From NCBI GenBank assembly GCA_903827245.1, contig CAIKHO010000052.1:1-32228 (forward strand): a stretch of 32,228 bases of DNA, read 5' to 3'. A program made the position numbers and the translations under genes. This document shows, in pieces, positions 6,078 to 22,495 of the stretch. A model generated the notes under the pieces. It was not told where the DNA came from. It ran no database searches and was given only the letters and a program-made list of their open reading frames with translations. The stretch's first letter is position 1; every line of letters starts with the position of its first letter. The DNA comes from an uncultured Opitutia bacterium (GTDB lineage Bacteria > Verrucomicrobiota > Verrucomicrobiia > Opitutales > Opitutaceae).

Positions 6078-8854
<2,777 letters not shown>

Positions 8855-8856
<2 letters not shown>

Positions 8857-8886: not shown

Positions 8887-9252
8887 ATGGCAAACCAATC
8901 GCAATCCTTCCGGGATGTCGTCGTGTGGCAGAAGGCTCACGCCTTCACGCTGGCGATCTATCGCGTCACCGAGGCGTTCCCCAAGCACGAGCTCTTCGCC
9001 CTCACGTCGCAGCTGCGCCGGGCCGCGGCCAGCATTCCGTCGAATTTCGTCGAGGGCTTCCGCAAGCGCACCAAACCCGATAAGGCCCGATTCTACAACA
9101 TCGCTCAAGGCTCGGCCGACGAGTGTCTCTACCAACTGATCCTCGCCCACGATCTCCGCTACACGGACACGACCACTCTTCAAGCCGACCTCGAAGAGGT
9201 CTCCCGCCTGCTCCAAGGCTACATCAACGGCCTCGAGCGCCGAAGTTCCTGA
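8887..9252 (+). CDS. Four-helix-bundle protein (23S rRNA intervening-sequence family)
   Basis: A 121-residue all-helical protein of the bIVP/TIGR02436 type. It has the family's hallmarks: FRDVVVWQKAH at 8-18, then YRVTEAFPKHELFALTSQLR, RRAAASIPSNFVEGF (about 44-58), a middle helix FYNIAQGSADECLYQL, and a C-terminal helix with RLLQGYI. Relatives are encoded in intervening sequences of some 23S rRNA genes or stand alone, and Avd of diversity-generating retroelements has a similar fold. The molecular function of stand-alone copies is not established. Here it interrupts gyrB-gyrA and is bracketed by inverted heptad arrays, so it looks like an inserted cassette rather than a gyrase component. Because gyrA has no visible promoter, the cassette is probably cotranscribed. 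Confidence 0.92.
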   Translation: MANQSQSFRDVVVWQKAHAFTLAIYRVTEAFPKHELFALTSQLRRAAASIPSNFVEGFRKRTKPDKARFYNIAQGSADECLYQLILAHDLRYTDTTTLQADLEEVSRLLQGYINGLERRSS

Positions 9253-9291: not shown

Positions 9292-11769
9292 GTGTACACC
9301 GCCAACGAAAAACTCTCCTCGGCCAACATCACCGACATCATGCAGACGGCCTACATCGAGTACTCGATGTCCGTCATCATCTCGCGGGCCCTGCCCGACG
9401 CCCGCGATGGCCTGAAGCCGGTCCAGCGCCGCGTCCTCTACGCGATGCTCCGCGAAGGCCTGGTGCACAACCGCCCGTTCGACAAGTGCGCCGGCGTCGT
9501 CGGCGAGGTGCTCAAGAATTACCACCCGCACGGCGACTCGTCCGTCTACGACACGCTCGTCCGCATGGCGCAGCCCTGGGTCATGCGCTACCCGCTCATC
9601 GATCCGCAGGGTAACTTCGGCTCGGTCGACGGCGATCCGCCCGCGGCCTACCGTTACACCGAGGCGCGCCTCAAGGACATCGCCGAGGACCTGCTGAAGG
9701 ACATCGAGGAGGACACCGTCGACTTCGTCCCCAACTACAAAGAGTCGACCACCGAGCCCACCGTCCTCCCTTCCGCCCTGCCGAACCTGCTGATGAACGG
9801 CTCGACCGGCATCGCCGTCGGCATGACGACGAACATCCCGCCGCACAACCTCGACGAGATCATCGACGCCACCGTCGCCATCATCGACAACCCGCGCATC
9901 TCCCTCGACGAGCTCTGCACCATCGTCAAGGGCCCCGATTATCCGACCGGGGGCATCATCTCTGGCCGCGAGGGCATCCTCAGCTACCTGAAGACCGGCA
10001 AGGGGATCGTCCGCACCCGCGGCAAGGCCCATACCGAGGAGATGAAGGGCGGCATGGAGCAGATCGTCATCACCGAGATCCCGTACAACGTTAACCGCAA
10101 CACGCTCGTCCTCCGCATCGCCGAGCTCGTCGGCGAGAAGCAGATCGACGGCATCCGCGACCTGCGCGACGAGTCCGACGAGAACACCCGCATCGTGATC
10201 GAGCTGAAGCGCGGCGAGCAGGCGAAGGTCGTCATCAACCAGCTCTTCCAGAAGACCGCCCTCGAGTCCTCCTTCGGCGTCACCCTGCTCGCGCTCGACA
10301 AGAAGCGGCCGAAGCAGATGAACATCAAGGAGCTCATCGAGTGCTACATCGAGCACCGCCGCGATGTCGTCACCCGCCGCACCAGGTTCCGCCTCCGGGA
10401 GGCCGAGGACCGCGCCCACATCCTCGAGGGCTACATCATCGCCCTCGATAACCTCGATGACTTCGTGAAGATCATCCGCGCCTCGTCCAACCGCGACGAG
10501 GCCAAGGTGCGGCTGATGACGAAATATCCCCTCTCCGAGCGCCAGACCGACGCCATCCTCGAGCTCCGCCTGTACCAGCTCACCGGCCTCGAGCGCGGCA
10601 AGATCGAGGCGGAATACCTCGCGCTGGAGAAGCTCATCCTCGAACTGCGCGCCATTCTCGAATCCGAATCCATCCTGATGGCGCTCATCAAGAAGGAGCT
10701 CGCCGAAATGAAGGCGAAGTACACCTCGCCCCGCCGCACCGAGATCGTGGCCGCCGCCGGCGATTTCCGCATGGAGGACGTCATTCCCAACGAGGGCTGC
10801 GTCATCACCGTCTCCCATCTCGGTTTCATCAAGCGCACCCGCGTCGCCGACTACCGCTCGCAGAAGCGCGGCGGCAAGGGCGTCATCGGCGCCGAGACCT
10901 ACGAGGAGGATTTCGTGGAGAACCTCTTCACCGCCTCCACCCACGACTACATCCTCTTCCTCACCAGCACCGGCCAGTGCCACGCGAAGAAGGTCTACGA
11001 TGTCCCCGAGGGCACCCGCACTTCCAAGGGCAAGTCCGTGTCGTCGTTCCTCCGCCTCACCGAGACCGAGAAGATCGCCGCCATGCTCTGCGTGAAGGAC
11101 TTCGCGCCGGGCCAGTTCCTCGTGATGGTCACCCGCAACGGCATCACCAAGAAGACCAGCCTCACCGACTACGCCAACACCACCCGCGAGGGCGGTCTCA
11201 TCGGCATCAACCTGGAGGAAGGTGACGCCCTCGTCGGCTGCGTGCTGACGAACGGCGAGAACGAGATCATCCTCATCAGCCACAAGGGCCAGGCCGTCCG
11301 CTTCAACGAAAGCGACCTCCGCGACCAGGGCCGCGGCACCGTCGGCGTCACCGGCATGCGCTTCAAGTACGACGGCGACTTCGTCAAGGCCATCGAGGTC
11401 TGCGATCCCGCCGCCCGCCTGCTCGTCGCGCGCGAGGATGGCATCGGCAAGCGCACCCCGTTCGAGGACTACCGCCTCACCAGCCGCGGCGGCTCGGGCG
11501 TCATCGCCATCGACCTGCCCGACGACGCCTCCGTGAGTGTAGCCGGTGCGCTCAGCGTCCACGACACCGACGAGGTCATGCTTCTCACCGCCAAGGGCCA
11601 GAGCATCCGCACCCGCGTGGCGGAGATCCGCGAGACCGGCCGCGGCGCGAAGGGCGTGAAGCTCGTGACCCTCGCCGAGGGCGACAAGCTCCTCGGCATC
11701 GCCCGCATCGTCGAGACGGAGGAAGAAGGCGGCAGCGATGCGCCCTTCGTCCCAGCCGCGGCCGGCTGA
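9292..11769 (+). CDS. gyrA: DNA gyrase subunit A
   Basis: An 825-residue DNA-cleaving subunit of gyrase. Numbering matches E. coli: Tyr122 in [10 protein letters not shown] is the catalytic tyrosine, and the quinolone region [10 protein letters not shown] keeps Ser83 and Asp87, the susceptible-type residues. The C-terminal beta-pinwheel carries the GyrA box QKRGGKG at 524-530, which separates gyrase from topoisomerase IV ParC. The translation start is a GTG (9292) preceded by TTTCCCC without a Shine-Dalgarno. The N-terminus [20 protein letters not shown] aligns with the family there. It is separated from gyrB by the four-helix-bundle cassette. Confidence 0.97.
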
Positions 11770-11771
11770 CA

Positions 11772-11865
11772 GGTGGAACGCGTTGACCCCAACGCGTTGG
11801 TTGGCTCCGTCAACGGATAACCAAGGACAGAGGTTTTCAGCGCGTTGAGGTCAACGCGCTCCACC
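11772..11865. repeat. Long inverted repeat after gyrA (GGTGGAACGCGTTGACC type)
   Basis: Arms of 28 bp (11772-11799 and 11838-11865) pair with three mismatches. The element begins 2 bp after the gyrA stop. There is no T-run behind it, so it is a possible mRNA-end stabiliser rather than a clear intrinsic terminator. A single related arm lies at 26236-26257. Confidence 0.85.
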
Positions 11866-11944: not shown

Positions 11945-12421
11945 ATGGCCGGAAAAATCTCCCAGCTCCTCGATCCTTCGCGCATCTTGCTGCACGTGCA
12001 GTCGGGCCAGCGCGTCGCCGCGATCACCGAGGTCGCCCGCCTGCTCGCCGGTCATCCGGACGTGACGGACTTCGCCGGCTTCCATGCCGAGCTGCTTGAG
12101 CGCGACCGCCTCGACACCACCTGCCTCGGCAACGAGGTCGCCCTGCCCCATGCCCGCACCGGACACGTGAAGTCCATCGTCCTGGCCGTCGGTCGCAGCG
12201 ATGACGGGATCCCGTTCGAGAACGGAAATGAAACCGTCCGTCTCCTCTTCATGCTCGGCACGCCCAAGACCAAGCCCGGCGACTATCTCCTCGTCGTCAG
12301 CTCGCTCTGCAAGCTCCTCAAGGACCCCGCCAACCGCGAAGCCTTCCTAGCGGCGGCCACACCCGAGGAATTCATCCAGGCGGTCGTCGCCGCCGAGGAC
12401 AAGCTGCTGGTGCCGGTTTGA
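11945..12421 (+). CDS. Stand-alone PTS EIIA domain protein (fructose/mannitol, PtsN-like)
   Basis: A 158-residue protein that would accept phosphate from HPr on His69 (LGNEVALPHARTGHVKS). It matches the EIIA type 2 fold throughout: the start region ISQLLDPSRI, the phosphoacceptor loop, then VRLLFMLGTP and the helix VVSSLCKLLKDPANREAFL. No EIIB, EIIC, HPr or EI gene is nearby. A regulatory role like that of PtsN (PTS-Ntr) is more likely than sugar import. The ATG at 11945 was preferred over an upstream in-frame ATG at 11882 because the added residues (MPTFPPGPHL...) are unlike the family. It lies 175 bp after gyrA, beyond a palindrome, so cotranscription with gyrA is uncertain. Confidence 0.88.
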   Translation: MAGKISQLLDPSRILLHVQSGQRVAAITEVARLLAGHPDVTDFAGFHAELLERDRLDTTCLGNEVALPHARTGHVKSIVLAVGRSDDGIPFENGNETVRLLFMLGTPKTKPGDYLLVVSSLCKLLKDPANREAFLAAATPEEFIQAVVAAEDKLLVPV

Positions 12422-12475
12422 GGTAGGGCGAGGGCCCCCGCCGAGCCGCGCTCTTGAATCGTAAGGATATCGAAC

Positions 12476-12496
12476 GGCTCACCCGGAGGGTGAGCC
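12476..12496. terminator. Strong short hairpin, possible terminator without U-tract
   Basis: GGCTCACCC and GGGTGAGCC form a perfect 9-bp stem with a 3-nt loop, 54 bp after the EIIA stop. No T-run follows on either strand, so it is either a weak or factor-assisted terminator or a REP-type element. Confidence 0.4.
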
Positions 12497-12573
12497 CTGC
12501 CAAAATTCCCGGGCCCAGAATTCGTTCATCCCTAACGCACGGGTCACAGCCGGGGAGCCTGGCTCCTACCCTC

Positions 12574-12643
12574 CTCGGTTTGCCCTCGGATCGCCTCCTG
12601 CAAATTTTCCAATCCCTATCCGTTGCATAGGAGACAAGCCGAG
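12574..12643. repeat. 70-bp structured element, copy 1
   Basis: The outer arms CTCGG/CCGAG and inner arms CTCCTGCAA/TTGCATAGGAG are both shared with the copy at 18572-18639, together with GGATCG and ATCCC between them. Most differences between copies fall outside the arms or keep pairing (see findings). It lies in the EIIA-glcF convergent spacer. Confidence 0.75.
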
Positions 12644-12728
12644 GCCGATCCAAGCCGGCTCATTTTGTCATTGGATAACGCCACGACTGAAAATGGGGAA
12701 TCGTTCGGTTGTTCCAGGTAGGAGCCGG

Positions 12729-12774
12729 CTTGCAGGCGATTTCAACTCGGTCCGCGTTGCTCATCGCCTGCAAG
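12729..12774. repeat. Inverted repeat (CTTGCAGGCGAT)
   Basis: Arms CTTGCAGGCGAT (12729-12740) and ATCGCCTGCAAG (12763-12774) are perfect and separated by 22 bp. The element is preceded by GGTAGGAGCCGG, a start shared with other GTAGGAGC-type intergenic repeats such as 18823-18847. Confidence 0.75.
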
Positions 12775-12810
12775 ACCGTTGCTACAACGGAATGACCCCG
12801 GCTCAGGCCC

Positions 12811-12838
12811 AATTCCCAATTACAAACTACCAACTACT
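12811..12838. repeat. Heptad array at the 3' end of glcF
   Basis: AATTCCC, AATTACA, AACTACC and AACTACT run in exact 7-bp steps. The glcF stop codon (12836-12834) lies inside the array. The same type of array is seen at 4891-4918. Confidence 0.7.
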
Positions 12839-14102
12839 TCTCCCGGCCCTCATACGCATCCCGCAGCACCTGCATCGTGTGCCGTACGCGTAGCGCAGAC
12901 CCCGATTTGGCCAGATGCGCCTGCAGCTGCGTAAGGCAGCCGATGTTCCCCGAGGCCACCAGTTCCGCCCCCGTTGCTGCCACCGCCCGCGCTTTCTGCT
13001 CACCGAGTGACGCGGCCAATGCGGGCTGGTCGAGATTGTAGGTCCCCGCGCTGCCACAGCACAGGTGGCCCTCCGCAATTTCGTACAGCTCGACACCCGG
13101 GATCGCCCGGAGCAGCTCACGCGGCTCACACCGGACGTTCTGCGCATTCGCGAGGTGACAGGCGTCGTGGTAGGCGATGCGCTGCCGGCGTCCCGTGTCC
13201 GGGGGAGTCTCGCGCAGGCCGAGGCGGATCAGGAACACGCTGACATCCACCACCCGCCGCCGGAACGCATCGGCCCGCGCCTCGTCGGGAGTGCCGCGCA
13301 GGATGAGGTGGTACTCGTGCATCGCCGAGCCGCAACCGGCCGCGTTGGTCAGGATCGCATCGACGTCGGCCGGGAACGCATCGAGGTTCCGCCGCGCGAA
13401 CGCCTGTGCCGCCGCCAGGTCGCCCGTGTGCCAGGCGAGGCCGCCGCAGCAGCCCTGCGCCGGGGGCAGCACCACCTCGATGCCGTTGCGCGTCAGCACG
13501 TCGATCGTCGCGGTATTGATGTCCGGGTCGAGCACCTGCTGCGCGCAGCCGGCCAGCAGTGCCACACGTGCGCGGCGCAAACCATGCGCGGGCGTGACCG
13601 GTGCCCAGCTTTCGGCCGGCGGCACCGCAGCGGGCGCCAGCTCCAGCATCGGCCGCAGCACGCGCGGCACTAGCGGCCCCAACCACCGCCCGACCCGCGC
13701 CGCACGCAGGGCCAGCCGGAAACGCCCGGGAAAGGGGATCGTCTGTCCCGCCAGCCAGCGGCGGAGTCGCTCGACGGGCGTCCGCTTGAAGTGCGGCTGT
13801 GCCAGCGCGCGGAAGGGGCTGATGAGATCGCGGTACGGCACGCCGCTCGGGCACGCGGGCTCGCACGCCAGGCAGCCGAGGCACCGGTCGACATGCGGTT
13901 GCGCCGCCGTCCACGGCAGGTTGCCCTCCAGCACCTGCTTCATCAGCACGATGCGCCCGCGCGGCGTGTCCATCTCCTGCCCCAGCTCATGGTACGTCGG
14001 GCACGCCGCGAGGCAGAACCCGCAGTGCACGCAGGCCTGCACGGCATGGGCCATCGGCTCGCCCAGCGCGCCGTGTTCCCCGGGTTTGATGGTGTGCAGC
14101 AT
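12834..14102 (-). CDS. glcF: Glycolate oxidase iron-sulfur subunit
   Basis: A 422-residue electron-transfer subunit of glycolate oxidase, the GlcDEF complex that oxidises glycolate to glyoxylate and passes electrons to the respiratory chain. Two 4Fe-4S motifs lie at Cys24/27/30/34 (CVHCGFCLAACP) and Cys74/77/80/84 (CLGCLACEPACP). Two CCG domains follow: QGCCGG at about 231-236 and HLCCGSAGTYN near 360. The ATG at 14102-14100 gives the family's normal N-terminus. It is last in the minus-strand glcD-glcE-glcF order, 160 bp after glcE with a strong hairpin in the gap. Confidence 0.93.
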   Translation of the reverse strand: MLHTIKPGEHGALGEPMAHAVQACVHCGFCLAACPTYHELGQEMDTPRGRIVLMKQVLEGNLPWTAAQPHVDRCLGCLACEPACPSGVPYRDLISPFRALAQPHFKRTPVERLRRWLAGQTIPFPGRFRLALRAARVGRWLGPLVPRVLRPMLELAPAAVPPAESWAPVTPAHGLRRARVALLAGCAQQVLDPDINTATIDVLTRNGIEVVLPPAQGCCGGLAWHTGDLAAAQAFARRNLDAFPADVDAILTNAAGCGSAMHEYHLILRGTPDEARADAFRRRVVDVSVFLIRLGLRETPPDTGRRQRIAYHDACHLANAQNVRCEPRELLRAIPGVELYEIAEGHLCCGSAGTYNLDQPALAASLGEQKARAVAATGAELVASGNIGCLTQLQAHLAKSGSALRVRHTMQVLRDAYEGREK

Positions 14103-14164
14103 GGTTGGATCGTTTTCCTCGTCAAAGGCCTACCGCCCTTAATTTCCCCGCCGCTCCGCCGCTC

Positions 14165-14198
14165 CGCGGTTTGTCACCCAATAGGTGACAAACGCGGG
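14165..14198. terminator. Strong hairpin between glcE and glcF
   Basis: CGCGGTTTGTCACC, loop CAATA, and GGTGACAAACGCGG form a near-perfect stem of about 14 bp with one bulged base. It lies inside the glcE-glcF gap. Without a U-tract it is better read as an attenuator, processing or stability element than as a full terminator, since glcF downstream needs transcription through it or its own promoter. Confidence 0.5.
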
Positions 14199-14262
14199 GC
14201 CAGGGATGGCTGGGCTTCCTCGTGCGAAAATGAAAATCTTCTTCGCGGTGGTGATGGGAAAG

Positions 14263-15348
14263 CTAGTCATCGAGTGAGGGAAATCGGTTCTGCGGATCGA
14301 GCGCGGCCTTCACCGCCGACGCAATCGCGGGTTTGTCCCGGCCCGCAGGCCAGAGCGGGGCGTCGCCGCGCAGCGTGAGCGCAGCGATCCCGAGCGCACG
14401 CAGGCCTTCGCCCAGCCGGGCTGCATCCAGTGGTGTCGGCAGCGAAAGAAAGGCCGCGTTGCCCCCGTTGGTCGCCCTGAGGCGGGCGCCCGCGAGATTG
14501 CGCCCGAGCGCGGAGAGCGCCGGCAATTGCGCGGGCGTGAGCGCCACCTTGACCAGCACGCCACCGGGATGCGCCCAGCTGAACTCCGCCGCTTCGCTCC
14601 ACGTTGTTTGCGCCTCCTCGGGCGACAGCTTTCTGCCGGGCCAGCGGGCGAGGATTTCCCCGGCGAGCGCATCGATGGCCGGCACCGGTCCCGCGAGGCG
14701 CGTACACACGGCGCTTTCATCGAGCGATGCGTCCAGCGCGTCCAGTTCCCAGCGGGTGCTGGCGGCTGCGGTCAGGATGCGCGTGACACCGGCAGCATCC
14801 TCCGCGGGCAGCCGCAGCGTGAGGGTCGAGGCGGGCCGGGGAAAGACCTTGAAGGTAATTTCCGCGAGGACGCCAAACCGGCCGAGGCTGCCCGTGAAGA
14901 ATTTCGGTAGGTCGAAACCCGCCGCATTCTTGACGACCTTGCCGCCCAGGCGCAGCAGACGGCCCGAGCCGTCCACAAAGCGGACCCCGAGGATGAAATC
15001 GCGCACCCCGCCATAACGGAACCGGCCCGGCCCGTTCAGGCCCGCCGCCACCGTGCCGCCCAGCGTCGCGCCCGCTTCGCCCAGCATCGGATCGAAAGGC
15101 AGGTACTGCCCCTTCTCCCCCAGCGCCGCCGCGATCTCGCGCACGGGTGTGCCGGCCAGCGCCGTGAAGGTGAATTCCGTCGGGTCGTACTCGATGATGC
15201 CGCGCAGACCCGTCATCGAGAGGAGTGCCACGTCCGGCACGGCCGAGAGCCGCGGCTTCGTGCGCGCGCCCACAACCAACACACGCGGGGTCGAGCGCAC
15301 GGCCTCGACCAGTTCGTCAAGCGAAGCGGGAGTCAGCAGTGGATTCAT
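14263..15348 (-). CDS. glcE: Glycolate oxidase FAD-binding subunit GlcE
   Basis: A 361-residue subunit with a PCMH-type FAD-binding domain. Characteristic blocks are GATLGGTVAAGLNGPGR, GGVRDFILGVRFVDG and GGKVVKNAAGFDLPKF, the last being a GlcE hallmark. The protein is shorter than GlcD and lacks the full GlcD C-terminal substrate domain, as expected for GlcE. It begins with an ATG at 15348 without a Shine-Dalgarno. It lies between glcD (133 bp upstream, across a long palindrome) and glcF. Confidence 0.92.
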   Translation of the reverse strand: MNPLLTPASLDELVEAVRSTPRVLVVGARTKPRLSAVPDVALLSMTGLRGIIEYDPTEFTFTALAGTPVREIAAALGEKGQYLPFDPMLGEAGATLGGTVAAGLNGPGRFRYGGVRDFILGVRFVDGSGRLLRLGGKVVKNAAGFDLPKFFTGSLGRFGVLAEITFKVFPRPASTLTLRLPAEDAAGVTRILTAAASTRWELDALDASLDESAVCTRLAGPVPAIDALAGEILARWPGRKLSPEEAQTTWSEAAEFSWAHPGGVLVKVALTPAQLPALSALGRNLAGARLRATNGGNAAFLSLPTPLDAARLGEGLRALGIAALTLRGDAPLWPAGRDKPAIASAVKAALDPQNRFPSLDD

Positions 15349-15361
15349 CCGGTCGGGGAAT

Positions 15362-15465
15362 TTTTAACCACAGATTGCACCGATGGGCACGGATTGAACG
15401 GCAAGGACACTCTGGCCGCATGCTGTCCGGTTATTTGTGCCCATCGGTGCAATCTGTGGCTAAAA
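15362..15465. repeat. Long inverted repeat between glcD and glcE
   Basis: Arms of 29 bp (15362-15390 and 15437-15465) have a single mismatch and contain CCACAGATTGCACCGATGGG in ~10-bp steps. It fills the glcD-glcE gap. It belongs to the same general class as the CACGAA and CACAGAGG elements elsewhere in the window. Confidence 0.9.
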
Positions 15466-15481
15466 TGGTTTTCTTCCAGGG

Positions 15482-16930
15482 TCATTCGCGGGAGATAAGG
15501 CCGGCCTTTTCCAGCGGGTGCAGGCCGTGCTGCACGAGCGCCAGCGCGCCGGCCACGGGGAACATCTTGCCGGGATTGGCGATGCTGCAGGGATCGAAGG
15601 CCGCCGCGATCCGCTTCATGCAGTCGATCTCGTCCACGGAGAACATGTCCGGTAGATACTGGCGTTTCTCGACGCCGACGCCGTGCTCGCCCGTGATCGA
15701 GCCGCCCATCGCGACGCACATCTTCAGGATGCGGCCCGCCAGCGCCTCGGCCCGCTCCAGCGCGCCTGGCACGCGGCCGTCATAGAGGATGAGCGGATGC
15801 AAGTTGCCGTCGCCCGCGTGAAACACGTTCGCGCAGCGCACGCCCATCTCGCGCGACCAGGCGTTAATGTGGCGGAGCGCCTCGCCGAGCCGCCGGCGCG
15901 GCACCACGCCGTCCTGGACAATGAAATCCGGCGACAGCCGGCCCACGGCGCTGAAGGCGCTCTTCCGGCCCTTCCAGATCGCGAGCCGCTCCTCCGCGTC
16001 GCGCGCCGGGCGGGCCTCGACCGGCCCGCTCGCGGCAATGATTTCATCCAAACGCACGCGCTCGACCGCCACCGTTTCGCGCGGACCCTCCAGCTCGACG
16101 ATCAGCACCGCCTCGCAACCCGGCGGATACTCGGCGTGCACGGCGGCGCTGGCCGCCTCCAGTGCCAGCGCGTCCATGATCTCGATCGCCCCCGGCAGCA
16201 GGCCGCTCGCCACGATCGCCGAGACCGCGTCGCCCGCCTGCTCGAGCGTCCGGTAACCCGCGAGCACGGTGTGAAAACATTCCGACTTCGGCAGGAGCTG
16301 GAGCGTGATCTCAAGCGCGATGCCGAACAGTCCCTCGTTGCCGACAAAGAGCCCGCACCAGTCCGGCCCCACCTGCTCCCGGCTCGCGCCGCCCCACTCG
16401 ACCACCTCGCCGGTCGCGAGCACGGCCTTGATGCCCAGCACGTGGTTCGAGGTCATGCCGTGCTTCAGGCAATGGGCGCCGCCGGAATTAAACGCGACAT
16501 TCCCGCCTATGGTGCAGATCGACTGGCTCGACGGGTCCGGCGCGTAATGCAGTCCGTGCGGCGCCGCGGCGACCGAGACCTGCGCATTGATCACCCCCGG
16601 CTGCACGACCGCGAAGCGCTGTGCGGGATCGAGCCGCAGGATGCGATTAAGGCGGTTCAGGGTGATGACAATGCCCTCCTTGATCGGCAGCGACCCGCCT
16701 GAAAGGCTCGTGCCGCTCCCGCGCGCCACGAACGGCAGACGCTCCGCATGGCAGAAGCGCACGAGCGCGACGACTTCGTCCGCCGTCTCCGGCACCGCCA
16801 CGGCGAGCGGCCGCTCCTGAAACGCCGTCAGGCCGTCGCTCTCGTACGATGCCAGCTGTGCCGGCCCCGTCAGCAACCGCCCGGCCGGCAGCAGCGCGGC
16901 GAGGCGGGTGAGGATGGGGGAAAGCGACAT
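15482..16930 (-). CDS. glcD: Glycolate oxidase FAD-linked subunit GlcD
   Basis: A 482-residue catalytic flavoprotein. The N-terminal PCMH FAD domain shows [20 protein letters not shown] and [14 protein letters not shown]. The C-terminal domain shows the substrate and flavin motifs HAGDGNLHP and [10 protein letters not shown]. The reading frame is open a further 257 codons upstream, but that part runs antisense through the HAD phosphatase gene. The family N-terminus [15 protein letters not shown] begins at 16930, which I take as the start. It is first in the glcDEF order; a divergent promoter region and a palindrome separate it from the HAD gene. No glcC-type regulator is present. Confidence 0.93.
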
Positions 16931-16990
16931 GGGCGCGGATGATGACGGTCGGGACGAAGAAGAAAAGGTGGTTCTGAAAAGATCGACCCG

Positions 16991-17057
16991 TAGGGGCGTT
17001 CCTTGCGGACGCCCACCGTAATCGCGCGGGCCCGGGCGGCCGCAAGGAACGCCCCTA
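16991..17057. repeat. Inverted repeat in the glcD/HAD divergent spacer
   Basis: Perfect 18-bp arms (TAGGGGCGTTCCTTGCGG at 16991-17008 and its inverse at 17040-17057) are separated by 31 bp. It lies between two divergent genes, where promoters are expected. It could affect both, but nothing shows this directly. Confidence 0.85.
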
Positions 17058-17122
17058 TGATGAGACCTGAATCCGTTGTTTTTTTGTGTCCCTTCGGCCC
17101 TCACCACCGCCAACCTCGACCC

Positions 17123-17770
17123 ATGATCCGCGCGCTCGTTTTCGATTTTGACGGTCTCATCCTCGACACGGAAACCCCACTCATCGATTCCTACGGCGAT
17201 GTGCACCTCGCCCATGGCGTGCCGTTTGACCGGGCCGTATTCCTGCGCAGCGTCGGCCACGCCGACTATGCGTTCGATCCCTGGCACGGCTTCAGCCCGC
17301 ATGCCGACCGCGCCGCGCTGGAGCTCGAGCGGCGGGCGCGGAAGGACGAGCGAATCCGGCGGCAGTCCGTACTGCCCGGGGTCGTCGCCCTGCTGGATGC
17401 CGCCCGTGAGCGCGGACTCCACGTCGGCCTCGCGTCCAATTCCGAGCACGCCTGGGTCGAGCCACACCTCGCACGCGTCGGCCTGCGCGACCGTTTCGCG
17501 TTCCTCGCCTGCCGGGACGATGTGGCCTCGCCCAAGCCCGAGCCCGATCTCTACAAACTCGTGCTGAACCATCTTGGCCTGCGCGGCCATGAGGCAATCG
17601 CCTTCGAGGATTCGCACACCGGCTCGCTCGCCGCCAAGCGCGCCGGCCTCTGGACGGTCGCGGCCCCCAACGTCTCGACGGCGCACCACGATTTCACCCA
17701 TGCCGACCTGCGGGTGGCTTCGCTCGCGGATTGCCCGTTGCCCGGCCTGCTCGCAAGATTCGGCGCATGA
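17123..17770 (+). CDS. HAD-superfamily phosphatase (beta-phosphoglucomutase-like)
   Basis: A 215-residue soluble phosphatase or phosphomutase. Motif I is [10 protein letters not shown] with nucleophile Asp8 and acid/base Asp10. Motif II is the Ser in ASNSE, motif III is the Lys in SPKPEPDLY, and motif IV is AFEDSHTG. A helical cap lies between I and II. The subgroup acts on small sugar phosphates or phosphoglycolate-like compounds. Divergence from glcD makes phosphoglycolate an attractive guess, but the motifs do not decide it. The ATG at 17123 gives the family N-terminus [11 protein letters not shown]; the frame is open upstream only through the palindrome. It is ATGA-coupled to the next gene. 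Confidence 0.88.
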
Positions 17771-18546
17771 ACCGTCCGTCCGTCCCGCGCTACAACGTCC
17801 TCGGCGTGGGCGTATCGGCGCTTACGCTGACACAGACGAGGGACCTGGTGCTCGGCGTGCGCGGCACGCGGCACAACGGCTACGTGTGCCTCGCCACCGT
17901 CCACGGCCTGGACGAGGCGCGCCGCGACCCGGCGTTCCGGCGGATCCTCAACGAATCGTGGCTCACGACGCCGGACGGCATGCCGCTCGTGTGGCTCGGA
18001 CCGCACGGCGTGGAGCGCGTGTACGGGCCCGACTTGATGCTGGCGGTGTGCGACGCGGGCCGGGCCCGGGGGCTCAGGCATTATTTCTACGGTGGCGCCC
18101 CGAATGTCGCCGAGGCCCTGCGCGAAAGCCTGGGCCGGCGGTTTCCCGGGCTGCAGGTCACCGGCACGTACACGCCCCCCTACCGCCCGCTGGAACACGG
18201 CGAGGTCGCCGCGCTGCGGGCCGACATCGCCCGCGCACAGCCCGACATCCTCTGGGTGGGGCTGGGCACACCGAAGCAGGAGCGCTTCATGGCCGAGCAC
18301 TGGCCGACGCTCGATGCCGGCCTGCTCATCGGCGTGGGCGCGGCCTTCGATTTTCATTCGGGCTGCGTGCGGCAGGCCCCGCGCTGGATCCAGCGCAGCG
18401 GCTTCGAGTGGCTGTTCCGCCTCTGCATGGAGCCGCGCCGGCTGGGGCCGCGCTATTTGAAGACGAATCCCGTCTTCGTCCTGCGCGCGCTCGCGCAGCT
18501 TACGGGGCTCAAAAAATATCCACTGGATAAAAACGACCTTGGGTAA
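17767..18546 (+). CDS. WecG/TagA/CpsF-family glycosyltransferase
   Basis: A 259-residue transferase of the GT26 family, which adds N-acetylmannosamine or related sugars to undecaprenyl-linked glycans at the inner face of the membrane. The family signature begins at about 68 with TPDGMPLVW (Asp70 is the conserved acidic residue), followed by [14 protein letters not shown] and [12 protein letters not shown] (about 170-185). A C-terminal block rich in Arg/Trp ([16 protein letters not shown]) is typical and thought to bind membrane. The start overlaps the HAD stop (ATGA), and an upstream in-frame ATG at 17731 is less likely. The operon with a sugar-phosphate phosphatase fits surface polysaccharide synthesis. 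Confidence 0.92.
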
Positions 18547-18571
18547 TCCGGAATAAAAATGACGATGCCTT

Positions 18572-18639
18572 CTCGGTTTATCTTGGATCGACTCCTGTAA
18601 AATCCGGATCCCAATCCATTGCACAGGAGGCGGGCCGAG
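18572..18639. repeat. 68-bp structured element, copy 2
   Basis: It shares the arms CTCGG/CCGAG and CTCCTG/CAGGAG with 12574-12643, and GGATCG and ATCCC between them. It starts 26 bp after the WecG-type gene stop, a position that would also suit a 3' end hairpin. Confidence 0.75.
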
Positions 18640-18822
18640 TGAAAGCCGAGGCAAGGAAATCCGGGGCTGGTGAGCGGCAGGTCCTATAGCGATGGATTAC
18701 CGACGTTAGGGCCTGCCTGTCTCTGGTTTTTCGCACGCCGCGAGCTGGCTCACGCATTTTAGGCACCTGCGAGCAGGCGGCCTGCGCGTTCAAATGGAAG
18801 GACTACGCTGACCTGGCCCAAA

Positions 18823-18864: not shown

Positions 18865-20472
18865 TCACACTGTATGGGGCTTGCCGAGGTTGGCGGCGCA
18901 TTTCCGGGTCATCGCCGACAGCTCGGCCCGCACTTGGGCGTACTGCGGGTCGTCGGCCAGATTCTTCAGCTCCAGCGGATCGGCCTTCGGGTCGAGCAGC
19001 ATCGCCCCGTTGACGCCCTCAGGGCCATATTCGGCATACCGCCATTTCTCGGTGCGCACCGCGACGCCATGCAACGTCCGTCCGTCCTCGCTCCACACGC
19101 TGTAGGCCGGACGGTCCCAAGCGGCCGCCGGGTCGCGCAGGAGCGGCGTCAGGCTCACGCCCTCGCCGCCCGGAGGCACGGCCAGGCCGCAGAGTTCGCA
19201 AAGGGTGGAGTAAATATTGATCGACTGCACGGTCCGGTAGCAGCTCCGGCCGTTGCCGGCCATCCCCGGAGCGGAGACCATGAGCGGCACGCGGGTGCCC
19301 ATCTCGAAGAGCGAGCCGGCCTTCGACCACTTGCCCTTCTCCCCGAGCTGGTAGCCGTGGTCGACGATGAAGACGATGATCGTGTTGTCGCGCAGCCCGA
19401 GGCGGTCGAGTTCGGCGACGACGCGGCCGAGATTCCAGTCCGCGTAGGTGATGGAGGCGATGTAATGGCGGATGGTTTTCTTCGCCTCGTCCTCGCTCGC
19501 CCCGCGGCCGATGAAGAGATCGGCGTTGTGCCGGCGGATCGCCGCGCTGGGGAAGCCGGGCGGCACCGTCGGCCAGGGCGCAAAGTCCGGCGTCAGCTTG
19601 ATCTTGTCGAGGTCGTACAGGTCCAGGAATTTCTGCGGCGCGCACAGCGGGCTGTGCGGCTTCACGAAGCCGCAGCCGAGGAAGAACGGCTCGTCCTTGT
19701 GGTCGCGGAGGTACTGGATCGCGGTATCGGCCGTGTGATAGTCGGGATGACCCTCGCCGTTCCCGTCGAGGACGATGAGCTGGTCGGATTCCGCTGCGCG
19801 GCTGACATCCCCCGCCAGCGCGGGCAGTACATACTGTGTGGCGGAGTCGGCGGAGCGATAGTCGGGCTCGTTCGCTTTGCCGGCGTCGACGATCCGCAAT
19901 TTGTCCGAAGCCACCGAATGAGGCAGGCCGCTGGGCGGACGCGGAACGACCATCTGCTTGCCACCCGCGCCGCCGCTGCCGGTGGGCTCATCGTGGCCCT
20001 TTGTCCAAGCCTTGGGGTCGTCAAATCCGCCGTGGAAAATCTTGCCAGCGCGCAGCGAGACATAGCCGTTCTGTTGGAACAGCTGCGGCAGGCTGACCAG
20101 GTCCGGATTGGTCACGCGAAAATTCGTCCCGTTGCCCAGGACCTGCGTCGTGGTCGGGTGCCGGTTGGTCAGCAGCGAGGTCCGCGATGGATTGCAAATC
20201 GGATACTGACAGTAGTTGCGGTCGAAGCGCACGCCGGCGCGGGCCAGCGCGTCGAGGTTCGGCGTCTGCGTGCCGAACATGCTGTTGTAGCAGCCGAGCT
20301 CGACGCGCATGTCGTCCGCCATGAAGAACAGGACATTGGGCTTGCGGGTACCCTTGGCGGAAGATTGCCCGCGCAGGATCTGCGGCAGCGAGGCCGCCGC
20401 GGCGGCGCCGGCGACCTGGCCGAGGAAACGGCGGCGCGTGACAGTGGATTTGGACCGGGGCGGAATTTTCAT
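18865..20472 (-). CDS. Tat-exported sulfatase, iduronate-2-sulfatase-like (S1)
   Basis: A 535-residue sulfate-ester hydrolase. A twin-arginine signal (RRRFLGQVAGAAAAASLP, about 13-30) directs export of a folded protein. The metal site begins with ADD (Asp53/Asp54). ICNPSRT holds the C-x-P-S-R motif with Cys93 converted to formylglycine by an unlinked enzyme. DHGYQLGEKGKWSK (from Asp371) is the second metal/sulfate block. KPHSP and the spacing match the iduronate-2-sulfatase branch. The frame is open 236 codons further upstream into the fucosidase antisense region, but the start at 20472 places the Tat signal at the N-terminus. Residues 189-215 and 229-255 form an internal duplication. Substrate unknown; a sulfated plant or algal glycan is plausible. 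Confidence 0.92.
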   Translation of the reverse strand: MKIPPRSKSTVTRRRFLGQVAGAAAAASLPQILRGQSSAKGTRKPNVLFFMADDMRVELGCYNSMFGTQTPNLDALARAGVRFDRNYCQYPICNPSRTSLLTNRHPTTTQVLGNGTNFRVTNPDLVSLPQLFQQNGYVSLRAGKIFHGGFDDPKAWTKGHDEPTGSGGAGGKQMVVPRPPSGLPHSVASDKLRIVDAGKANEPDYRSADSATQYVLPALAGDVSRAAESDQLIVLDGNGEGHPDYHTADTAIQYLRDHKDEPFFLGCGFVKPHSPLCAPQKFLDLYDLDKIKLTPDFAPWPTVPPGFPSAAIRRHNADLFIGRGASEDEAKKTIRHYIASITYADWNLGRVVAELDRLGLRDNTIIVFIVDHGYQLGEKGKWSKAGSLFEMGTRVPLMVSAPGMAGNGRSCYRTVQSINIYSTLCELCGLAVPPGGEGVSLTPLLRDPAAAWDRPAYSVWSEDGRTLHGVAVRTEKWRYAEYGPEGVNGAMLLDPKADPLELKNLADDPQYAQVRAELSAMTRKCAANLGKPHTV

Positions 20473-22361: not shown

Positions 22362-22495
22362 ACTCAGCCGGAACGATGCAGTTGAACCACAGCGATCGGC
22401 GTAGCAGCCGACGTGAGGAGGCTGGGTATGGCGACTCACCTCAAACCAGCCTCCTCACGTCGGCTGCTACCGGCGACTGCATCGTCCCGGCTCAG
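22362..22495. repeat. Nested long palindrome
   Basis: Inner arms of 25 bp (22401-22425 and 22446-22470) are perfect. Outer arms about 22363-22382 and 22474-22495 pair with a few mismatches (CTCAGCCGGAACGATGCAGT). The whole could fold into one ~60-bp hairpin. It lies upstream of the fucosidase gene. Confidence 0.9.

Follow-up and report, generated by a model that had tools for sequence, protein, structure and literature searches.

A dispersed palindromic DNA repeat of Opitutaceae that probably works like a small non-autonomous mobile element

The repeat pair in the window (the whole 32,228-nucleotide stretch analysed, from contig CAIKHO010000052.1 of an uncultured Opitutia bacterium) consists of two copies of an 81-base mirror-image (palindromic) DNA repeat. 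We consider it likely that this repeat is a REP/MITE-like palindrome of Opitutaceae, non-coding and dispersed, and that it acts as a small mobile element of the non-autonomous kind; on the best reading, it behaves like mobile or selfish DNA and not like an RNA gene. The original prediction, made from the letters of the window, had described a recurring element of 68-70 bp with conserved pairing arms and had offered a small RNA, a 3'-end structure, or a REP-like repeat as its identity. Both copies were indeed present where they had been placed, with the ends and inner arms given for them, and the recurrence of a repeat with pairing arms was borne out. The extent was not, as outer arms (CTCGG / CC(G/A)AG) lengthen the element to positions 12574-12654 (81 bp) in copy 1 and 18572-18650 (79 bp) in copy 2. 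Among the three identities offered, a REP-like repeat was right in kind, while no support was obtained for a small RNA or a 3'-end RNA structure. The copies and their half-units are as follows.

12574-12654, + strand: copy 1, inward ("A") form, 81 bp; 76.5 bits to profile R1, in which the copy itself is included
12574-12601, - strand: left half-unit of copy 1, reading GCAGGAG-N5-CCGAG-N6-CCGAG on the - strand
12627-12654, + strand: right half-unit of copy 1, ATAGGAG-N5-CCGAG-N6-CCAAG
18572-18650, + strand: copy 2, 79 bp; 63.7 bits over 18574-18650 to profile R1, which includes copy 2
18623-18650, + strand: right half-unit of copy 2, matching the half-unit motif exactly

Each copy is made of two inverted half-units, ACAGGAG-N5-CCGAG-N6-CCGAG, the three boxes of which (ACAGGAG, CCGAG, and CCGAG) are spaced by about 11 bp. 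In the 81-bp consensus, position p stands opposite position 82-p in a single register over about 32 positions, mismatched stretches included. Conservation across 48 copies is blocky: the inner blocks CTCCTGT / ACAGGAG (consensus positions 22-28 and 54-60) are 98% conserved and the two CTCGG / CCGAG block pairs 90-92%, compared with 62-76% for the letters between blocks and 85% for the loop. Terminal inverted repeats of the MITE type are present, the arms of the element facing each other. The two halves usually differ, with TGTAAAA on the left and TTGCACA on the right, and the element therefore has an orientation. Pairing takes place between the halves: none of the four half-units tested folded better as its own hairpin than shuffled sequences did, and the inverted doublet is able to form one hairpin. 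When folded as DNA, inward copies outperformed their shuffles (z -1.5 to -5.0; six strands from four copies), and one outward copy from the related genome G001 reached a z of -8.0.

This outward form has the half-units in the opposite order: ACAGGAG lies outside, and their inner ends are separated by 12-19 bp. Thirty-four such pairs were found in the stretches examined, 23 in G001 and 11 in the own genome (G000); these stretches were selected by the motif, and the numbers are not a full census. Among the stretches read in G001, the outward form was commoner than the inward one. With regard to the arrays of alternating units that mark BIMEs, both half-unit orders occur here and a few left-right-left chains were noted (contig C21), but no long regular arrays of half-units were seen. 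Besides the inverted doublets, single half-units and tandem clusters were observed.

Copy 1, used as a DNA query, had 28 matches within the own genome, of which 18 were at E < 1e-3. With a sequence-only profile of 19 aligned copies (alignment A3), the yield was 145 matches at E values up to 1, corresponding to at least 48 near-full places, a lower bound given that 150 of 1688 first-look candidates were scored. Partial matches and opposite-strand matches at the same place were excluded from this count, the latter arising because the element is nearly palindromic. The counts of covariation, placement, flanks, and conservation use all 48 copies; a further alignment of 39 of them (A4) served for reading only. 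The arm motif read backwards had no match in any genome searched. Recurrence is far beyond chance, and the search for further copies that had been proposed for the own genome and its relatives was productive in both. Clustering within the own genome is weak, with 12 pairs of copies within 10 kb versus 6.3 expected.

Copy number among relatives is patchy and burst-like. Profile matches were found in 7 of 57 near genomes, the own genome included, the match in G008 being weak (E 0.003, without the half-unit motif); copy numbers in these near genomes are lower bounds, as no more than 81 candidates were scored per genome. The exact half-unit motif was present in 12 of 200 sampled genomes of the family, with 40 occurrences in the own genome, 44 in G001, 27 in G005, and one to five in each of the other nine. 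The sister genome G002, which is 98% complete, contains one exact half-unit versus the 40 of the own genome. In a sample of the phylum, the motif was detected in 3 of 387 genomes, all inside the family, and it was found in none of the 350 sampled genomes outside the family. A search with the exact arm pattern matched one named genome, that of an uncultured Opitutae bacterium, with records near the own genome possibly excluded. Six viral contigs carry the motif. Four have a common stretch in which the paired element is missing, the match in a fifth falls inside a predicted gene, and one contig (L203) carries a real paired copy. On these matches, phage carriage was rejected as an explanation.

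Relatives also differ in the presence of the element at matching loci. Gene order matches that of G002, G001, or both at five loci, and in all eight comparisons made there the relative lacked the element: window copy 1 (G002), window copy 2 (G002 and G001), C55:32832 (G002), C55:39327 (G002 and G001), and C33:11692 (G002 and G001). At C55:39327, both relatives have a clean short spacer without the element, and the other four spacers are also rearranged, with extra genes or repeats. The G001 stretch that faces window copy 2 contains one partnerless half-unit-like match with four mismatches, of a kind that occurs in coding DNA too. Absence from the relatives could reflect loss.

Genome G005 is a single contig of 5,957,605 bases, in which 14 of 15 near-full DNA-search matches lie on one strand within 78 kb (in stretches L101-L104, 4.425-4.520 Mb), the 78-kb interval having been picked after the cluster had been seen. 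The profile adds one more match outside the cluster, at 3.32 Mb. This one-stranded concentration, together with boxes that are kept at steps of about 11 bp across genera while the letters between them vary, would be consistent with binding sites of a chromosomal protein (nucleoid, partition, or replication) that contacts the phased boxes on one helix face. However, a chromosomal role is hard to align with the single exact half-unit of G002 and with the mixed orientation of copies in the own genome. Furthermore, no shared gene neighborhood was found for the G000 and G005 stretches that were compared: a tblastn search of 286 predicted proteins from 21 G000 stretches against seven G005 stretches returned nothing at E 1e-10, the best match being at 8e-10. 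We regard this reading as improbable. An integron attC identity, prompted by the G005 cluster, was discarded because the attC end boxes were missing on reading. The G005 cluster sits amid other dispersed repeats, and the stretch between its first copy and the rest holds proteins that look phage-like by eye.

All 48 copies in the own genome lie outside predicted genes (codon-based gene calls), so that the high copy number and extragenic location that define REP sequences are both found here. The window copies stand between the following genes.

11945-12421, + strand: PTS EIIA-like gene, upstream of copy 1
12834-14102, - strand: gene with CCG and Fer4 domains, labeled GlcF-like, convergent on copy 1
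17767-18546, + strand: WecG/TagA/CpsF glycosyltransferase gene, upstream of copy 2
18865-20472, - strand: sulfatase gene, convergent on copy 2

As originally described, both window copies therefore occupy convergent spacers downstream of plus-strand genes, and this setting is enriched among the copies of the own genome. The 48 copies fall into 19 convergent, 22 tandem, and 6 divergent spacers, with one copy at a contig end; this last has no gene-pair class, leaving 47 for the spacer statistics. Convergent spacers accounted for 19 of 47 with the element versus 31 of 213 without it (p = 0.00015), and divergent spacers were fewer (6 of 47 versus 56 of 213, p = 0.058). Control spacers were of at least 100 bp, lacked the element, and came from the same stretches (by subtraction, 31 convergent, 126 tandem, and 56 divergent). 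In the spacers between tandem genes, 11 copies run along and 11 opposite to the genes, i.e., there is no strand preference. A weak promoter-like site was noted near copy 1, at 12665-12694.

The earlier argument for structure included a C-to-T change in the left arm of copy 2 that was thought to turn a G-C pair into a G-U pair and so keep pairing. The direction of this change proved to be the reverse, T being present in 46 of 47 copies and C being private to copy 1, where this T-to-C change disrupts the T-A pair that the main register has there. Pair-breaking changes, which had been named as evidence against a structured element, do occur in part: the pair 14-68 is C-G in 33 copies, C-A in 9, T-G in 5, and T-A in 1. 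Overall covariation was absent from the 48 inward copies. When right arms were dealt out anew among the copies in 5000 shuffles, 1045.1 +/- 8.05 positions matched, compared to 1049 observed, a number reached in 1716 shuffles. The outer variable 5-mer was slightly above chance (75 versus 66.6 +/- 4.1; reached in 129 of 5000 shuffles) and the inner one below it (109 versus 116.8). Likewise, RNAalifold returned a covariation term of -0.01, with a two-sided change in 2 of 13 pairs.

In the outward form of G001 (21 pairs), the 5-mers next to the core were coupled (81 versus 69.3 +/- 3.2; 8 of 5000), an upper estimate because two near-identical tandem copies were left in, and the 6-mers were uncoupled (51 versus 62.6). 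The 11 outward pairs of the own genome lean the same way but unclearly, both for the 5-mers (33 versus 27.0 +/- 3.9; 421 of 5000) and for the 6-mers (32 versus 26.3; 486 of 5000). A pooled test of both genomes gave 122 versus 97.9 +/- 5.7; the within-genome test was relied on instead. Coupling of the outward form in G001 would also be expected from a structural role.

An element that works as RNA, as a 3'-end hairpin that stops transcription or shields mRNA in the way proposed for E. coli REP/BIME, would thus gain from this coupling, and likewise from the excess of convergent and shortage of divergent spacers and from the folding of inward copies beyond that of their shuffles. However, the missing overall covariation and the 11:11 strand distribution in tandem spacers argue against it, as does the fact that the element was not kept at the matching loci compared in the sister genomes. 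Transcription termination fares no better: no intrinsic terminator was found in the arms of either window copy, and the outward form is mostly TTTT-stem-AAAA, the reverse of a terminator. A terminator-like site of five pairs (12643-12660) shares 12 bases with the end of copy 1 and is not built by the arms of that copy; one such site near copy 1 compares with 0.6 expected from shuffles, and copy 2 has none. The intrinsic terminator was rejected, the arms of the window copies forming no GC stem with a T run. A small RNA or other RNA motif was rejected on the lack of an Rfam match, of overall covariation, and of strand bias; Rfam matched only RNase P in the window, and positions 12400-18800 were empty up to E 5. 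Altogether, we think it quite unlikely that the element works as RNA.

Blocky conservation, phased boxes, mirror arrangements, patchy bursts, and differences in presence and absence all fit a non-autonomous mobile palindrome. The half-unit would then be recognized by a putative DNA-handling protein acting in trans, either a transposase or a recombinase; this would explain why the arm blocks are kept at 90-98% mean identity while the intervening letters drift. A copy may be moved in the form of an inverted pair, the DNA probably being folded. Copies that land in genes or promoters would presumably be lost, so that survivors would accumulate at 3' ends and within spacers belonging to other hairpin repeats. 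The flanks of the 48 copies gave no clear signal of target-site duplication: abutting direct repeats were near the lengths found in shuffled flanks, with a small excess of 6-nt repeats (2 of 48 copies versus 0.6% of shuffles). As a clear duplication is absent, insertion is not proven and the element boundaries are soft.

A classical MITE would be a DDE insertion sequence reduced to its ends, without the gene. The size of 81 bp, the inverted ends, and the intergenic location would agree with such an origin, and insertion sequences that target REPs exist (PMC1525189, consulted in part). However, in addition to the unclear duplication signal, no half-unit pair spaced like the ends of an insertion sequence was seen by eye among the matches listed, and the opposite-order form is hard to account for. 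A classical MITE is therefore a doubtful identity for the element.

Another candidate is a strict REP or REPIN, for which the mover would be a REP-associated tyrosine transposase (RAYT) or TIRYT, its relative flanked by TIRs. Short units arranged as inverted doublets, intergenic and hairpin forming and accompanied by single half-units and tandem clusters, are what REPINs look like in the consulted part of Bertels and Rainey (2011, PMC3116915). GTAG-tagged hairpins are moreover common in the spacers of the own genome, and Y1_Tnp, the RAYT domain and the sole transposase family searched, is present in 10 of 12 near genomes. However, the element has no GTAG or CGTC tag and its half-unit is no hairpin of its own. 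Y1_Tnp was not found in the own genome (97.4% complete), and of 21 Y1_Tnp matches spread over five carrier genomes, none was flanked on both sides by half-units, allowing up to three mismatches. Overall, 0 of 30 Y1_Tnp loci were flanked in this way at this threshold, with about 1.5 kb examined on each side and some flanks shortened by contig ends. One Y1_Tnp locus has an exact half-unit at a distance of about 1 kb; its inverted ends are its own and unrelated. Identity with RAYT or TIRYT terminal repeats was accordingly rejected, the loci not being bracketed by half-units. RAYT is unlikely to be the mover, and we judge the strict REP/REPIN reading as a whole to be very unlikely.

The palindrome shares its surroundings with other repeats, and the spacers of the own genome are mosaics of them. 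Two GTAG-tagged repeats in the window are given here.

12718-12785, no strand: inverted repeat beside copy 1 with GTAG outside both ends, GTAGGAGCC...GTTGCTAC; 23-nt arms, 83% complementary
22401-22470, no strand: intact GTAG-tagged REP dimer "X", with a 25-nt arm, a 20-nt spacer, and a 25-nt arm

The first of these looks like a GTAG-tagged REP dimer when compared with the families in the consulted part of PMC3733652. Dimer X consists of GTAGCAGCCGACGTGAGGAGGCTGG, a spacer of 20-25 nt (in 8 of the 9 dimers listed), and its inverse. It was detected in 11 of 48 spacers with the element versus 9 of 243 others, with a p value (4.5e-5) that is too kind because X was chosen from the flanks of the element. 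At C55:32832 and C33:13913, the element lies inside the X spacer, both times with offsets of 12 nt on the left and 7 nt on the right, which together are about the normal length of an X spacer; at a third locus, the offsets are 12 and 51. These fixed offsets suggest, on small numbers, insertion into X or a composite of the element and X. A general link between the element and GTAG-tagged hairpins was rejected, as their density is lower beside the element (0.89 per kb) than in element-free spacers (1.78 per kb, same detector), where shuffled sequence gives 0.53 per kb. It is a speculative and on balance unlikely proposal that the palindrome preys on REP dimers, entering a set position in the spacers of GTAG-tagged, REPIN-like hairpins; a putative enzyme independent of tyrosine transposases would read the 11-bp phased boxes and move it, and it could be rebuilt in two mirror arrangements of one half-unit. 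The intact dimer X occurs in a genome without detectable Y1_Tnp.

The nearest known kinds are REP/BIME, REPIN, and MITE-like repeats, and the element is a member of none of them; the comparisons that follow are with the consulted parts of the sources. GTAG- and CGTC-tagged REP/BIME repeats have been described with Opitutus terrae named as GTAG rich (Di Nocera et al. 2013, PMC3733652). Like these, the element is intergenic, palindromic, and of high copy number, forms dimers in both orientations, and favors convergent and unidirectional spacers. In contrast to them, it lacks a GTAG or CGTC tag next to the stem, its unit is not a self-hairpin as the REP unit of 20-40 bp is, and it is longer (81 bp for the pair). 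No constant tag was seen by eye in the flanks of the 48 copies; a few have CGTC directly before CTCGG, and the ends of the element are CTCGG / CCGAG. The missing tag is the one argument against identity with the O. terrae families GTAG-17, -19, and -20 of the same source. With REPINs it has in common an inverted doublet as the unit, conserved ends, a variable middle, tandem clusters, and single half-units (PMC3116915). However, a linked RAYT was not found for it, and compensatory changes, which are common in REPINs according to that source, are missing overall from its inward form.

Likewise, the element resembles ERIC, Correia/NEMIS, RUP, CIR, and YPAL (Delihas 2007, PMC2229807) in being shorter than 200 bp, non-coding, intergenic, and taxon bound and in having inverted arms, but, unlike them, it has neither TA ends nor a clear duplication, and its half-unit occurs in two opposite arrangements. 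Two copies lie at identical offsets within a GTAG REP dimer spacer, which recalls the REP-targeting insertion sequences (PMC1525189); compared with these, the element is far too small and non-coding, with most copies outside detectable REP dimers. Literature on palindromic or interspersed repeats of Opitutus terrae, Opitutaceae, and Verrucomicrobia, including the string ACAGGAGG, yielded no description of the family among the papers listed. As the defining features of REP (tag, hairpin unit), REPIN (RAYT), and MITE (duplication) fail, we place the element in a family of its own, new within the broad class "bacterial dispersed palindromic repeat."

The intergenic DNA of bacteria is shaped by small palindromic repeats, and the movers of many of them are obscure. 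This repeat lends itself to testing how REP-like sequences spread in the absence of RAYT because it combines a sharp, searchable half-unit and boom-and-bust copy numbers with a single-contig carrier (G005) and a carrier without a detectable RAYT. It also cautions annotators that repeated 3'-end hairpins in such genomes need not be RNA genes.

Further features were noted in the window. A bacterial RNase P class A RNA gene (Rfam RF00010) lies at 2-490 on the - strand, and a PF05635 (23S rRNA-intervening-sequence protein) gene (8887-9252, + strand, E 5e-35) stands between gyrB (6298-8856) and gyrA (9292-11769). A separate repeat of about 95 bp at 11771-11865, between gyrA and the PTS gene, has dozens of matches listed in G001 and G002, some of which fall on both strands at one place. 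Short dispersed repeats were also observed at 12420-12510, with several matches in G002, and at 16990-17058, with four matches in G001.
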